From an uncultured Bacteroidota bacterium (GTDB lineage Bacteria > Bacteroidota > Bacteroidia > Chitinophagales > Chitinophagaceae), in assembly GCA_903878475.1 (NCBI GenBank), contig CAIRHQ010000242.1:1-35481 (forward strand): 35,481 bases of DNA. The letters run 5' to 3'. This document shows positions 186-35,481 of the stretch, one piece after another. Below the pieces are notes generated by a model. It did no database searches. It had not been told where the DNA came from and worked only from the letters and a program-made list of their open reading frames with translations. The position numbers and the translations under genes were made by a program. The number at the start of each line of letters is the position of its first letter. The first letter of the stretch is position 1.

Positions 186-280
186 ATTAGTCCGATATGC
201 AAAAATTAGACCTAAAATTAACGAAAATTACTGCCTTAACGGATAAGTTGGGGGATTATTGATGAACGGGGGGTTTGTGC

Positions 281-460
281 GTTTAAGACGTTTAAGGGTT
301 TAAGTCGTTTAAGGGTTGGGGAGGCAGGGATTTAAGGTTTAAAGTTTAAGGTTTAAGGTTGGTTGAGAAGTTGAGGGGTTGAGGAGTTTGGTGATTGCGT
401 TAACATCATGAGCTTTCTAGTTGATTGAACCTCCAACCTCCAACTTCCAACCTCCAACTA
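281..460. repeat. Heptamer repeat cluster with facing arms (GTTTAAG / TTGAGG, then CCTCCAA)
   Basis: This intergenic stretch lies between the hydrolase stop codon and the promoter region of the gene at the left edge. It holds degenerate GTTTAAG and TTTAAGG units on the plus strand (about 281-360), then TTGAGG-like units (360-390), a unique core (391-427), and about four CCTCCAA units (428-460), which are TTGGAGG on the minus strand. The two arms therefore face each other. The last unit overlaps the hydrolase stop: the CTA at 458-460 is both the end of the repeat and the TAG stop codon read on the minus strand. No coding potential is seen. Confidence 0.85.
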
Positions 461-4148: not shown

Positions 4149-4158
4149 TTGGGGACGA

Positions 4159-4200
4159 AAGTTTAAGGTTTTAGGTTTAAAGTTTAAGGTTTAAGGTTTT
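4159..4200. repeat. GTTTAAGG heptamer array upstream of guaB
   Basis: About five degenerate units (GTTTAAGG, TTTTAGG, TTTAAAG, TTTAAGG, TTTAAGG) lie on the plus strand, just upstream of the guaB promoter. It is the left arm of a facing pair whose right arm is the TTGGCGG-type palindromic element at 4331-4371. Confidence 0.8.
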
Positions 4201-17978: not shown

Positions 17979-17986
17979 TATCTTTG
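17979..17986 (+). promoter_or_regulatory. -7 box ahead of the DUF3467 gene
   Basis: TATCTTTG exactly matches the TAnnTTTG consensus and lies 18 nt upstream of the ATG at 18005. A matching -33 box is not clear. Confidence 0.55.
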
Positions 17987-18004
17987 CTTCCTAAATTTAC
18001 ATGT

Positions 18005-18319
18005 ATGGCCAACAATCTTGAACAACCCAACCAGATCAATATAGAGATATCAGAAGAAGTATCAGAAGGCAATTATGCCAACCTGGCCATCATTACCCAT
18101 AGTCATGCCGAATTTGTGATCGACTTCGTTAATGTAATGCCCGGCACACCCAAGAGCAAGGTAAAAAGCCGCATCATCCTTACCCCATTTCATGCCAAAC
18201 GCTTTATGAAGGCCATGGTCGATAACGTAAAAAAATTCGAAGCCGCCAATGGTACCATACAGGATATGGAAGCCGTGGAGATACCGTTTAATTTTGGTGG
18301 GCCGACAGCGCAGGCTTAG
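18005..18319 (+). CDS. DUF3467 family protein
   Basis: A 104-residue cytoplasmic protein of the DUF3467 family, which is widespread in Bacteroidota and other bacteria but without a known function. Typical segments are EGNYANLAIITHSHAEFVID, FVNVMPGTPKSKVKSRIIL and TPFHAKRFMKAMVDNVKKFE. I chose the ATG at 18005 (MANNLEQPNQ) because homologs begin with such short polar leaders; the open frame starts seven codons earlier. It is a single-gene unit with its own -7 promoter box. Six bases after its TAG stop a long TTGGAGG array begins, and it faces the minus-strand four-helix-bundle gene. Confidence 0.88.
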   Translation: MANNLEQPNQINIEISEEVSEGNYANLAIITHSHAEFVIDFVNVMPGTPKSKVKSRIILTPFHAKRFMKAMVDNVKKFEAANGTIQDMEAVEIPFNFGGPTAQA

Positions 18320-18325
18320 GGCTTG

Positions 18326-18422
18326 TTGGAGGTTGGAGGTTGGAGGTTGGAGGTTGGAGGTTGGATGTTGGAGGTTGGAGGTTGGAGGTTGGAGGTTGGA
18401 GGTTGGAGGTTGGAGGTTGGTT
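18326..18422 (+). repeat. Tandem TTGGAGG heptamer array (about 14 copies)
   Basis: Nearly perfect tandem TTGGAGG units, with one TTGGATG variant, fill 97 bp between the DUF3467 gene and the four-helix-bundle gene. It starts six bases after the DUF3467 stop. A shorter array of the same unit on the opposite strand (18874-18901) lies on the other side of the four-helix gene. The dense GG runs make two-quartet G-quadruplexes possible on the plus strand. The open frame across it is only the repeat read through and is not a gene. Confidence 0.95.
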
Positions 18423-18445: not shown

Positions 18446-18832
18446 TTATTTTTTGACTGGCTTTATTAGGTAATTCGTTTTAGTGAGATAGCTGATGAAT
18501 GCAAATATTTTTTTTCCAAGCATGTCAGAGTAAGCAATTCTTTCTTGTAAAATAAGGTCATTGATATAATTTTTATCAAACGCACGGTAAAGCTGTGACC
18601 TCACTTCAGCGTTTGATCCTTTGGCGATGATAAGAAATTGCTTGAATTCATTTTTTGAGAACCTGTCAAATCCCTCTGCAATATTATCCATTACAGAACC
18701 TGAAGAGCGATTTAATTGATTGATCAATTCAAAATCATTTTTGAATTTACTGAGCAGGTACGAAATTTCCTTAGCCTGTATTCTTGCTTGCTGCCAAATT
18801 TCCAGATCTTCAAACCTTGTTATAGTTGCCAT
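18446..18832 (-). CDS. Four-helix-bundle protein (S23 / 23S rRNA-intervening-sequence family), copy 1
   Basis: A 128-residue helical protein of the S23/IVP family. Key motifs: [12 protein letters not shown] (residues 6-17), [15 protein letters not shown] (43-57), [12 protein letters not shown] (62-73) and [16 protein letters not shown] (75-90). The family was first found as ORFs inside rRNA intervening sequences; members form ring-like oligomers and are related to the Avd accessory protein of diversity-generating retroelements. No rRNA or reverse transcriptase is nearby. Both flanks carry TTGGAGG arrays facing each other (18326-18422 and 18874-18901), and the gene lies downstream of radC in the same orientation. 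It shares roughly half its residues with copy 2 at 34879-35286. Its function here is unknown. Confidence 0.92.
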
Positions 18833-18873: not shown

Positions 18874-18901
18874 CCAACCTCCAACCTCCAACCTCCAACT
18901 A
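18874..18901 (-). repeat. TTGGAGG heptamer array at the radC stop codon
   Basis: About four units (CCAACCTCCAACCT on the plus strand, TTGGAGG on the minus) form the right arm facing the long array at 18326-18422. The last unit supplies the TAG stop codon of radC (18901-18899). Confidence 0.9.
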
Positions 18902-19594
18902 TTTCTCGTCCTCAAAACTATAATACCCCTCCTCACTCACTATAATATGATCGAGAAGTTGAATATCGAAGAGCTGTGCTGCCGACCTGATCTTTTGGGT
19001 GATGGCATGGTCTGCCTGGCTGGGCTGTAGGTTGCCCGAAGGATGGTTATGGCAAAGAATGATGGAGGTGGCGTGCTGTTCCAGGGCTTTTTGCATGATG
19101 ATGCGGATATCGGCAACGGTGCCGGTGATGCCACCGCGACTGATGATCTCAAAATGATTGACCTTATTGGCGCGGTTCAGGAATACTACAGCAAATACCT
19201 CGTAGGGGTGATCGGTAAGGCGCGATCGGAGAAAGGTAGCTATATCGGCTGCGCAATGTATGGCAACTTTTTTGGGAGGTAAAATGTTTTGCCTTCTCCT
19301 GCCTAATTCAAGCGCAGCGGCGATGGTAATGGCTTTGGCCTTGCCTATTCCGTTGATCTTTTGCAGTACAGGCAAGCTAAGCTTTCCTAGTTCGTGCAGA
19401 TTTGATTTGCCGGCTTGTAATACATCTTTGGCGATATCTACGGCAGATTTGCTTCGGGTACCGGTTTGAATTAAGATGGCCAACAGCTCAGAATCACTGA
19501 GGGAAGAGGCGCCCATGCTGAGTAATTTCTCCCGGGGGCGATCGTCGGGCGCCCATGATTTGATGGATGTGGATGGCTTGTTGACATTTTTCAT
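18899..19594 (-). CDS. radC: RadC family protein (JAB/MPN domain)
   Basis: A 231-residue RadC. The N-terminal helical part has LSDSELLAILIQTGT and INGIGKAKAITI, a helix-hairpin-helix. The JAB metal-binding domain has the JAMM motif CHNHPSGNLQPSQAD with His182, His184 and Asp195, as in a metallo-isopeptidase-type fold. Its exact role is disputed; the name comes from early DNA-repair mapping. The last residues are SFEDEK followed by a TAG contributed by the TTGGAGG array, where relatives commonly run a few residues further (Asp-Glu-Gly-hydrophobic). The C-terminus has therefore probably been replaced by insertion of the repeat, without touching the active site. It is divergent from prs; TAAATTTG (19607-19600) is a good -7 box just five bases before the ATG. 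Confidence 0.94.
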   Translation of the reverse strand: MKNVNKPSTSIKSWAPDDRPREKLLSMGASSLSDSELLAILIQTGTRSKSAVDIAKDVLQAGKSNLHELGKLSLPVLQKINGIGKAKAITIAAALELGRRRQNILPPKKVAIHCAADIATFLRSRLTDHPYEVFAVVFLNRANKVNHFEIISRGGITGTVADIRIIMQKALEQHATSIILCHNHPSGNLQPSQADHAITQKIRSAAQLFDIQLLDHIIVSEEGYYSFEDEK

Positions 19595-30916: not shown

Positions 30917-31384
30917 ATGAGGAAGACACAACCGAAGAAAATCCCTTTAGCGCCGGATCCAAAGTTCAACGACAAGTTGGTTACCCGTTTTGTAAACAAC
31001 CTGATGTGGGCCGGTAAGAAAAGTGGAGCTTATATTATTTTTTATGATGCCCTTGATAAGGTATCCAAACAAACCGGCGAGAACGGTTATGAGATTTGGA
31101 AAAAGGCACTTGCCAATATCACTCCGGGTGTGGAAGTTCGCAGCCGCAGGATCGGTGGTGCAACATTTCAGATCCCTGCTGAGGTACGTGCCGACAGGAA
31201 GATCTCTTTGAGCATCAAATGGATGGTAAAGTATAGCCGCGACAGGAATGGTCGTAGTATGGCTGATAAACTGGCTAACGAGATCGTTGCTGCCAGCAAA
31301 GGTGAAGGAGCTGCTTTCAAAAAGAAAGAAGATACCCACCGTATGGCAGAAGCCAACAAGGCATTTGCACATTTCAGGATCTAA
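30917..31384 (+). CDS. rpsG: 30S ribosomal protein S7
   Basis: A 155-residue uS7, which nucleates assembly of the 30S head and in some bacteria represses the str operon translationally. Typical segments: KFNDKLVTRFVNNLMW, KALANITPGVEVRSRRIGGATFQIP and SIKWMV. A terminator 23 nt after its stop separates it from fusA. Confidence 0.98.
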   Translation: MRKTQPKKIPLAPDPKFNDKLVTRFVNNLMWAGKKSGAYIIFYDALDKVSKQTGENGYEIWKKALANITPGVEVRSRRIGGATFQIPAEVRADRKISLSIKWMVKYSRDRNGRSMADKLANEIVAASKGEGAAFKKKEDTHRMAEANKAFAHFRI

Positions 31385-33964: not shown

Positions 33965-34849
33965 TCAATATCCAGCCTTGGCGCCACCGATATTTTCAAT
34001 GGGATGCCAGGTAGTTTTAATTTCCTGAAAGTCCATGATATAATAAGGAGATTGTGCTCCATCAGTTAACCATTTCACCTGATCATAGATATGCACTCTT
34101 TTAACATTGAGTGATGCTTTTTCTTTGATCATTTGTTGAATGGCCCGGTCTGTTTCACAATAGACTGCTGCATTTACATCCATATGGTCGGCAAAGAAGG
34201 GAGCCAATTCAGAAACCTTACCCGTTAAAATATTTACCACTCCACCGGGTAGGTCGGAGCTATTCAATACTTCAGCAAAAGTAACGGCACAAAGTGGTTT
34301 TGTATGTGATGCCAGCACTACACAGCTATTGCCTCCGGCAATGATCGGCGCGATCAGGGATACCAATCCGATCAATGAATCATTTTGCGGAGCAATGGCT
34401 GCCACTACACCGGTTGGTTCAGGAACCGAGAAATTGAAATGCGATGATGCCACTGGGTTAACGGCACTGTATACCTGCTGAAATTTATCGCACCAACCGC
34501 TGTAATAGATCAACCGGTCGATACACAGGTTCACTTCTTTTTCGGCAGCAAGCTTGCTGGCATCCTGTTTCATCAACTCCTCAATGAATTGCGCTTTTCT
34601 GCCTTCCAGCATTTCGGCTATGCGGTACAGTATTTGTCCGCGGTTAAAAGCAGACCTTGCACTCCATCCGCCAAAAGCACTACGCGCTGCCACCACAGCA
34701 TCCCTGAAATCCTTTCGGGAACTGAGGCAAACATTGGCCAGTTTCTGTTGCTTGCTGTTTGAAGCAATATAGAATCTTCCCGATTCGGTTCGGGGGAATT
34801 GGCCGGCGATGTAGATTTTGTAGGTTTTGAGCACTTCAATTCTGGACAT
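33965..34849 (-). CDS. Half-length aldehyde dehydrogenase homolog lacking the catalytic domain
   Basis: A 294-residue protein that matches the N-terminal NAD-binding half of aldehyde dehydrogenases (usual length about 480-500). Recognisable parts are TYKIYIAGQFPRTESGRF, FRDAVVAARSAFGGWSARSA, NRGQILYRIAEMLEGR, EPTGVVAAIAPQND, IIAGGNSCVVLAS and LPGGVVNILTGK. After about residue 215 it diverges and ends; the catalytic Cys region and the Glu-Leu-Gly-Gly motif are absent. It reads cleanly with no internal frameshift, so it is more likely a stable non-catalytic partner than a broken gene. A preceding minus-strand gene ending at 35440 looks like the end of a full ALDH, which would make a pair in which this is the pseudo-subunit; ALDH16 proteins fuse a catalytic and a non-catalytic ALDH domain in the same way. 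Confidence 0.85.
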   Translation of the reverse strand: MSRIEVLKTYKIYIAGQFPRTESGRFYIASNSKQQKLANVCLSSRKDFRDAVVAARSAFGGWSARSAFNRGQILYRIAEMLEGRKAQFIEELMKQDASKLAAEKEVNLCIDRLIYYSGWCDKFQQVYSAVNPVASSHFNFSVPEPTGVVAAIAPQNDSLIGLVSLIAPIIAGGNSCVVLASHTKPLCAVTFAEVLNSSDLPGGVVNILTGKVSELAPFFADHMDVNAAVYCETDRAIQQMIKEKASLNVKRVHIYDQVKWLTDGAQSPYYIMDFQEIKTTWHPIENIGGAKAGY

Positions 34850-34854
34850 AATAT

Positions 34855-34888
34855 GTTTAAAGTTTAATAGTTTAAAGTTTAAAGTTTT
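34855..34888 (+). repeat. GTTTAAAG array, left arm of the element around four-helix-bundle copy 2
   Basis: Four GTTTAAAG-type units broken by an AATAG interruption. The first 25 nt (34855-34879) match the inverse complement of 35381-35405 at 23 of 25 positions, including the interruption. The array ends in the last codons of the four-helix gene and contains its TAA stop (34881-34879). Confidence 0.9.
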
Positions 34889-35286
34889 TTTGGTGCCTGC
34901 TTTTTTCGAATTCCCTGCACCTCACTGTTTTGAAGATAAGCGATGAAATTTTGTAACAATCCACTTATTTGCAAAACCAATATTTTTAGATTTTCAAATT
35001 CTATTGATGAGATATAATTCCTGTCAAATGCTCTGTGTAATTGTGAGCGCAATTCGCCACAAGAACCCTTCGCATAACCCAGAAATTGTATAAACTCAGC
35101 TCTGGTTCCTCTTTCAAATCCTTCTGCAATATTATCCATAATTGATCCAGAAGAACCCTCAATTTGATTTACTAGTTTGTAACTATTTTTAAAATTACCT
35201 GCATCTATAATTTCGCCTAACAGCTTACAAACAACTCTTGCTTTTTTCCAGCCTTCAATATCTTCAAATCGTTTAATTGTTGCCAC
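34879..35286 (-). CDS. Four-helix-bundle protein (S23 / 23S rRNA-intervening-sequence family), copy 2
   Basis: A 135-residue paralog of the protein at 18446-18832. Motifs: [40 protein letters not shown] and ELRSQLHRAFDRNYI. The start codon is GTG at 35286-35284, giving (M)ATIKRFEDIEG, which aligns with [11 protein letters not shown] of copy 1. The C-terminus is Lys-rich and its stop lies in the repeat arm. The gene is enclosed by 25-nt inverted repeats and apparently sits between two aldehyde-dehydrogenase-like genes. Function unknown; no rRNA, reverse transcriptase or transposase is visible. Confidence 0.92.
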   Translation of the reverse strand: MATIKRFEDIEGWKKARVVCKLLGEIIDAGNFKNSYKLVNQIEGSSGSIMDNIAEGFERGTRAEFIQFLGYAKGSCGELRSQLHRAFDRNYISSIEFENLKILVLQISGLLQNFIAYLQNSEVQGIRKKQAPKKL

Positions 35287-35344
35287 AATAAAGTGTTTTT
35301 AACGATCTGAAATTCGATATTATTTTAAAATTGGTCAAGGTTAA

Positions 35345-35370
35345 AAAACTCTAAAAAAAGTTTTTATTCA
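35345..35370. other. A/T hairpin upstream of four-helix-bundle copy 2
   Basis: AAAAACT near 35345-35351 pairs with AGTTTTT near 35359-35366. In the minus-strand direction it lies between the right repeat arm and the four-helix-bundle gene. It could be a weak terminator for the preceding gene or part of the element. Confidence 0.35.
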
Positions 35371-35380
35371 CGTATGCCAT

Positions 35381-35445
35381 AACCTTAAACTATTAAACCT
35401 TAAACCTTAAACCTTAAACGAATTAAACGAATTAAACCCTTAAAC
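35381..35445 (-). repeat. GTTTAAGG array, right arm of the element around four-helix-bundle copy 2
   Basis: About six CCTTAAAC/GAATTAAAC units on the plus strand (GTTTAAGG on the minus). The 25 nt at 35381-35405 are the inverted partner of 34855-34879 with two mismatches. The outermost unit overlaps the TAA stop of the partial gene at the right edge. Confidence 0.9.
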
Positions 35446-35481
35446 GAGATTGACATACCCCGACAGCCCATGCAATCCTCC
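35440..35481 (-). CDS. Partial C-terminus of a minus-strand gene, possibly a full-length aldehyde dehydrogenase
   Basis: Only the last 13 codons and a TAA are visible: GGLHGLSGYVNLV. The spacing Gly-Gly-x-x-Gly-Leu-x-x-Tyr is what is found at the C-terminus of many aldehyde dehydrogenases, which usually read Gly-Arg-Glu-Gly-Gly-x-x-Gly-Leu-x-x-Tyr. It precedes the half-length ALDH gene on the same strand, supporting a pair. The evidence is short and the call is tentative. Its stop codon is inside a GTTTAAG repeat unit. Confidence 0.4.
   Translation of the reverse strand, partial: GGLHGLSGYVNLV

Follow-up and report, generated by a model that had tools for sequence, protein, structure and literature searches.

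On balance we favor a reading in which S23/IVP genes belong to a widespread small mobile element that consists of one S23/IVP gene between two facing arrays of 7- or 8-nt units and that would spread by the mechanism set out below. The parts of this reading carry different weights: judging from sequence comparison, the S23 gene and its arms likely form one mobile unit, and the chances that the S23 protein acts on the arrays are about even. From one genome to another, a given host spacer can hold the whole package, arrays alone, or neither. The window, that is, the whole stretch of DNA analyzed, comprises 35,481 nt of contig CAIRHQ010000242.1 (assembly GCA_903878475.1, 245 contigs) from an uncultured Bacteroidota bacterium of the Chitinophagaceae, whose genome is labeled G000 here.

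Element 1 contains a gene with a GTG start at 34879..35286 on the reverse strand, which encodes an S23/IVP four-helix-bundle protein of 135 aa (PF05635, E = 4.6e-27; TIGR02436, E = 4.3e-26), flanked by two arrays identified on the same strand by tandem-repeat search. The upstream arm, 5' of the gene (35381..35437), is composed of GTTTAAG/GTTTAAT-type units on the coding strand, and its end adjoins the GTTTAA that ends the upstream ALDH gene; the downstream arm (34849..34887) is an inverted array of GTTTAAG/GTTTAAT-type units that holds the S23 stop codon. As an earlier note on this DNA had claimed, the gene is bounded by 25-nt inverted arms (34855-34879 and 35381-35405, with 501 nt between them) that are complementary at 23 of 25 positions (92%), both being heptamer arrays (GTTTAAR) with a common AATAG interruption. 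For each S23 gene we calculated an arm score by matching the upstream 200 nt, without gaps, to the reverse-complemented downstream 200 nt and taking the best value, with a threshold of 12; element 1 scores 19.0, and a score of at least 18 was reached in 2 of 600 mismatched upstream/downstream pairs. The note had also described the arms as terminal inverted repeats, which holds for their inversion but not for a fixed terminal repeat, the arms being degenerate arrays with a unit that differs between elements. Its placement of the element between two ALDH-like genes is borne out by the downstream neighbor (33965..34849, reverse strand; PF00171, E = 7e-38) and by the final codons of an upstream gene cut by the window end (35440..35481, reverse strand), which by eye look like the C-terminal ends of ALDH proteins encoded at syntenic loci; at L122, a locus of a relative in which the genes are arranged alike, the upstream gene is an ALDH gene.

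The other inverted repeats of at least 25 nt within 700 nt in the window are those of a second S23 gene (96-100%) and an AT-rich pair of 31 nt, the latter located at 31019/31680 and matching at 81%. The second gene (element 2; 18446..18832, reverse strand) encodes 128 aa (PF05635, E = 4e-27). Inverted-repeat and tandem-repeat searches placed its arms on the same strand, the upstream one at 18874..18899, with GTTGGAG units on the coding strand and 26 nt that are 100% complementary to the other arm, and the downstream one, with 13.7 heptamer copies, at 18325..18420. Its host neighbors are radC (18899..19594, reverse strand; PF04002) and a DUF3467 gene (17984..18319, forward strand; PF11950). The genome contains three PF05635 matches in its 245 contigs, the third (L011) having arms AATTAATAATTAAGAATTA that match at 19 of 19 positions and are built on a GAATTAA-like unit, and thus all three S23 genes are enclosed by inverted arrays, with a different unit each. 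Between the arms of the window elements, S23 is the one gene with a family match, and neither a transposase nor a Y1/HUH protein was found there. An Rfam search of the window matched no known RNA family, and the neighbors of the elements are protein genes, so that the elements do not lie inside an rRNA gene; a PHROGs search at 0.001 returned no phage-family match. A defense assignment of the second window S23 protein was considered and set aside, PADLOC giving one weak DpdH match (E = 0.0015) over 92 of 1015 model positions.

Inverted arms are a common property of S23 genes. We assembled an order-level set from the two genes of the window, L011, 29 loci returned by a search of related genomes, and 60 regions picked from the upper part of the match list of that search; from 97 gene hits, 93 from 32 genomes were kept, and four that repeated the same protein or had less than 120 nt of flank were left out. 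Inverted arms reach the threshold at 62 of these 93 genes; arms in direct orientation do so at 6 of the 93, and among mismatched-locus pairs the count is 20 of 600. Among ordinary genes in a 416-kb sample of the genome (including 7.6 kb of N), the same score is attained by 9 of the 303 that encode 90 aa or more and by 1 of the 54 in the range of 90-160 aa. A second set was obtained by scanning a species-genome collection with the L033 S23 protein and taking the best 80 loci of at least 570 stretches from many phyla; 87 S23 genes were counted, with two that had short flanks left out. In this best-loci set, many members of which are MAG contigs that may be misbinned, inverted arms occur at 65 of 87 genes and direct ones at 9 of 87, and the high rate among mismatched pairs (121 of 600) arises because related units recur around the L033 subfamily. 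These recurrent units (GGCACAAA, GGTTCAAA, and kin) have a period of 8 and were seen, for example, in Bacteroidota, Nitrospirae, Verrucomicrobia, Desulfobacteraceae, and Planctomycetes. Plasmids yielded 34 records with an S23 match, and 8 of the 13 examined reach a score of 12 (mismatched pairs, 17 of 156). The earlier note had named the absence of arms around most family members as an outcome that would speak against a mobile unit; arms are found around the majority, and the S23 genes below threshold number 31 of 93 (order), 22 of 87 (cross-phylum), and 5 of 13 (plasmid). The best period is 7, 8, 14, or 15 in 72 of 360 arms and in 6 of 680 control stretches located 600-900 nt away. On two cyanobacterial plasmids (L301, L307) S23 lies between cas6 and cas4 with differing array units, in agreement with the 18 IVP genes reported in cas loci in the available text of one study (PMC3936711). 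In three genomes of the genus (L041, L042, L046), S23 genes with differing flanking units lie between genes that by eye resemble atpD and atpC.

The arms and the neighboring genes have a preferred orientation relative to S23. At armed loci, the upstream arm contains more G than C in 57 of 62 (order) and 57 of 65 (cross-phylum) cases, and when neighbors are taken as mechanically called ORFs of 100 codons or more, the upstream neighbor runs in the same direction as S23 at 84 of 93 genes of the order-level set and 82 of 87 of the cross-phylum set, and both neighbors do so at 72 of 93 and 77 of 87, respectively. This fixed polarity and the co-directional upstream ORF are what would be expected if S23 regulated its own operon as a repressor or by binding RNA, with the arms serving as operators or as an mRNA hairpin and host or IS functions moving the package; the match between unit and protein described below would fit such self-binding as well. 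We regard this explanation as improbable, given that pairs of arrays without S23 are common far from any S23 gene, that S23 is the sole gene within the elements of the window, and that the arms are without RNA wobble bias. A hairpin maintained by selection on the transcript is likewise not supported, the arm mismatches on the coding strand having no wobble bias (59 vs 58 and 45 vs 60).

The array unit follows the S23 protein. We compared arm similarity with S23 identity for 170 genes of 105-145 aa and found that arms are shared by 180 of 459 cross-phylum pairs with at least 60% S23 identity (39 of 459 in a control with one arm reversed), by 8 of 2286 cross-phylum pairs with less than 50% identity, and by 0 of 138 same-genome pairs with less than 50% identity. 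For pairs without a homologous neighbor gene, arms are shared by 471 of 2704 at 50% identity or more and by 98 of 10840 below; the observed value was reached in 0 of 1000 label permutations. Given that shared arms rise with S23 identity and are absent from dissimilar pairs in the same genome, the unit is tied to the S23 lineage and not to the host; since a gene and its arms transferred or inherited jointly would give the same match, this result speaks for a package and not for binding as such. At the ALDH site the arrays start at the host GTTTAA stop, and by eye a locus with a GTTTGA stop (L144) has GTTTGGG units, such that the units there could be copied from target sequence, or the elements could choose matching targets; the match between protein and unit argues for the choice of matching targets over copying. 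One array-only ALDH spacer (L149) has a 9-nt CGCACCAAA-like unit.

Arrays also occur without S23. In the window, facing arrays of GTTTAAG-type and then AACCTCC units at 279..459 are a probable satellite, and a single GTTTAAG array at 4158..4199 has no gene inside (both from tandem-repeat search, with no strand assigned); the latter adjoins a gene that by eye resembles IMP dehydrogenase. After removal of four stretches of N, the 416-kb genome sample contains 26 period-7 stretches as compared with 6 of period 8 and at most 2 of each other period from 4 to 12. Close S23-less array pairs, 20 in all, were drawn from sampled contigs, the window, and loci chosen for their arrays; in 18 of them the two arrays are in facing orientation (GTT...AAC). 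Units of resident S23 elements are amplified in their genomes: the GTTGGAG dimer occurs 46 times in G000 and once in 38 relatives together; the GTTTAAR dimer occurs 158 times in G000, 57 times in G002, and 0-9 times in the other relatives; and the GTGAATC dimer, whose unit is carried by the S23 gene of G017 at L104, occurs five times in G017, twice in G009, once in G014, and not at all in 36 others. S23-less facing pairs of resident units are scattered in the window genome and are probably satellites of S23 elements, although no resident S23 gene carries the unit of the dispersed GTTGGCA arrays and, in G002 with its 57 GTTTAAR dimers, no evident matching S23 was found among the eight genes examined. 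The cores of such pairs share little (score of at least 10 in 11 of 136 pairs vs 4 in shuffled sequences), and a common core, for which this excess is weak, is not claimed.

These arrays can also be read as host minisatellites expanding through slippage and gene conversion, in which S23 merely lodges without a role. Consistent with that reading, many arrays are without S23; GTTGGCA, a third heptamer family dispersed in the genome, is carried by none of the three resident S23 genes; and heptamer arrays have been reported from other genomes in accounts whose available text does not mention S23 (PMC4679880, PMC4692102). GTTGGCA arrays, facing pairs included, were seen at L265, L274, L276, L297, and L300. 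We nevertheless consider minisatellites an unlikely explanation, because across phyla it is the S23 protein and not the genome that the unit follows, the arms on either side of S23 are oriented toward each other and have sequences specific to the locus, and such enclosure was seen for only 9 of 303 ordinary genes.

Comparison of host spacers supports the mobility of the package and differs between the two sites of the window. In the radC/DUF3467 spacer S23 is present in the window genome, G021, and G014, and the S23 gene of G009 adjoins radC. The proteins are 26-28% identical between window or G014 and G021 or G009, 51% between window and G014, and 91% between G021 and G009, so that, apart from the one 91% pair, identities of 26-51% imply that this spacer was entered by two or more separate lineages. 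Of 29 further radC loci, at least 16 have radC and DUF3467 -3 to 128 nt apart with no S23 between them, the radC stop having been placed at locus position 2202 where it was missed automatically, with a check by eye for part of these loci; at several other radC loci DUF3467 was not found nearby. The ALDH spacer was inspected at 23 of 30 loci: S23 is present at 10 and apparently cut by the contig end at one more, arrays stand alone by eye at six (L124, L134, L135, L136, L144, L149), the spacer is empty by eye at three (L122, L126, L130), and three are unclassed. Among the seven remaining loci, L123 has S23 and L131 a split S23. In the tree, 11 ALDH-site S23 proteins form one clade (support 0.98) together with L053 and L078 from elsewhere, the S23 gene of L078 being located upstream of that ALDH gene at a distance of 1.7 kb. 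Because the ALDH-site proteins form one clade, gain at this site would be old and the polymorphism largely due to loss; the ALDH site thus seems to hold an old inherited insertion that was repeatedly lost or reduced. The earlier note had proposed a small mobile or repeat-maintained unit without a known transposase, to be checked by comparing loci with and without it, and had counted a gene in the same place in all syntenic genomes against the idea. Empty radC and ALDH spacers were found instead, and together with the arms on most family members they support such a unit, with the qualifications that the insertion at the ALDH site is mostly old and inherited and that S23-less pairs occur too. 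The exact ends and target-site duplication that the note hoped for are not visible at the radC or ALDH sites, where the empty sites compared are not near-identical to the occupied ones.

The S23 proteins of the window belong to the family by profile search, at 94.8 and 95 bits for PF05635 (cut-off, 33.8) and 91.3 and 84.1 for TIGR02436 (cut-off, 24). The AF2 model of the element 2 protein (pLDDT 93.3) contains four helices, and the best PDB matches in a Foldseek search are 2gsc (Xcc0516; chain B, E = 5.2e-5, TM 0.82/0.89) and 2rld, which are also recovered by profile search (4.1e-33 and 6.8e-19, respectively); Xcc0516 is described in the title of its paper as five four-helix bundles. These are followed by Avd (4dwl) and DGR ribonucleoproteins with E values of 0.1 or worse and TM scores near 0.7-0.8, chain D of 4dwl matching with TM 0.68/0.80, probability 1.00, and E = 0.099. 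The Avd fold raises the alternative of a retroelement, in which S23 would play the part of Avd, a reverse transcriptase would be supplied in trans, and the package would spread by reverse transcription. In addition to the fold, PF05635 is the commonest Pfam family in DGR neighborhoods according to the available text of one survey (PMC10053308), and one S23 pair lies beside a reverse transcriptase in G038. We deem this alternative very unlikely, given that PF00078 has no match in G000, which disfavors reverse transcriptase-driven spread for this genome, and was found in 9 of 39 genomes (absent from 30) whereas the S23/IVP family is present in 38 of the 39 searched; moreover, the G038 pair scores 10.5, below the threshold. 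A distant reverse transcriptase missed by PF00078 would revive the retroelement reading. In that G038 locus (L111, contig C24) the two S23 genes stand next to the reverse transcriptase as in a DGR.

Returning to the mobile element that we favor, we predict that the Avd-fold S23 protein probably binds its own array, and we posit that it would do so as duplex, hairpin, or single strand. Such binding would let host replication or recombination functions copy or insert the array-bounded DNA, a reverse transcriptase seemingly not being needed in this host, and S23-less array pairs would thereby spread as satellites. One arm may be copied from the other, for example, by template switching, which would fit the mirrored order of variant units; this order is significant (p ≤ 0.05) at 44 of 87 loci and exceeds all 200 shuffles at 11, values that are only suggestive because the loci were pre-selected for high scores. 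In its broadest form, in which S23/IVP, a gene that annotations across bacteria call 'four helix bundle protein' or 'S23 ribosomal protein', is the sole gene of a class of transposase-free elements that recognize and spread their own heptamer or octamer arrays, specific to each lineage, with the 23S intervening sequences (IVS) as members and many so far unexplained bacterial heptamer arrays as satellites, we hold the hypothesis to be evenly poised.

The link to rRNA draws on two cases. The S23 gene of an Azospirillum plasmid (L313) lies inside LSU rRNA (RF02541, 2140.6 bits), and inverted arms of 36 nt, matching at 31 positions and containing heptamers such as AGAGGAC and GGATGAC, surround the whole ORF; with the automatically chosen start codon this locus scores 10.0 and was counted as a miss in the tally of 13 plasmids. 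Its transcript is strongly folded (z = -8.95). In print, the Coxiella IVS is described, in the text available, as having an S23 ORF, a terminal stem of 28 bp, and, ahead of the S23 start, a heptamer in two or three tandem copies (PMC4990558). Based on these two cases, 23S IVS and spacer S23 elements look like one kind, and the 23S IVS would represent an S23 element that inserted into an rRNA gene. The suggestion in the earlier note that such flanking repeats were undescribed is qualified by the Coxiella repeats; in the PMC literature as available, to which subscription papers and bioRxiv do not belong, we found nothing linking S23 genes to matched flanking arrays.

If correct, this explanation gives a setting and a partner, its own array, to the S23/IVP family, which is known mainly by name; it explains why an S23 ORF lies inside the inverted repeats of 23S rRNA intervening sequences, and it supplies a source for the heptamer arrays reported from Bacteroidetes, Cyanobacteria, and Xanthomonas. 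An element that spreads while encoding neither transposase nor reverse transcriptase would represent a new type of mobility, and the pairing of each protein with its array would open the recognition code to direct testing.

Among the closest known systems are the 23S IVS, which are sporadic and, in the literature available, have been proposed to be mobile or remnants of transposition. Like them, the spacer elements have an S23 ORF between inverted repeats; unlike them, they occupy spacers that separate protein-coding genes, frequently at several places in one genome, with a unit tied to the S23 lineage and with S23-less relatives. With DGRs they share the Avd fold of the accessory protein (4dwl_D), in contrast to which the PF00078 search of this genome gave no match. 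The 7-nt arrays in spacers resemble the heptamer repeats of Xanthomonas, Nostoc, Beggiatoaceae, and Bacteroidetes, as far as the available accounts describe these. Cyanobacterial repeats were reportedly the subject of work by Mazel in 1990. Published examples include 70 facing GGGAATC pairs in X. campestris (PMC4692102) and TAACTGA heptamer arrays (PMC4679880), and it is the S23 link, absent from the available text of both accounts, that sets the present elements apart. The S23-less pairs are short and gene-less with inverted ends, as are MITEs, but they have no parent transposase, no target-site duplication was found, and their ends are variable arrays. REP/RAYT systems combine one resident gene with short matching inverted repeats that flank it and with gene-less copies dispersed elsewhere. 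The S23 elements differ from these in having no Y1/HUH transposase and a tandem array of 7 or 8 nt in place of the REP palindrome, and they resemble REP/BIME-RAYT in the same combination of a single resident gene, matching inverted repeats, and gene-less copies scattered through the genome.
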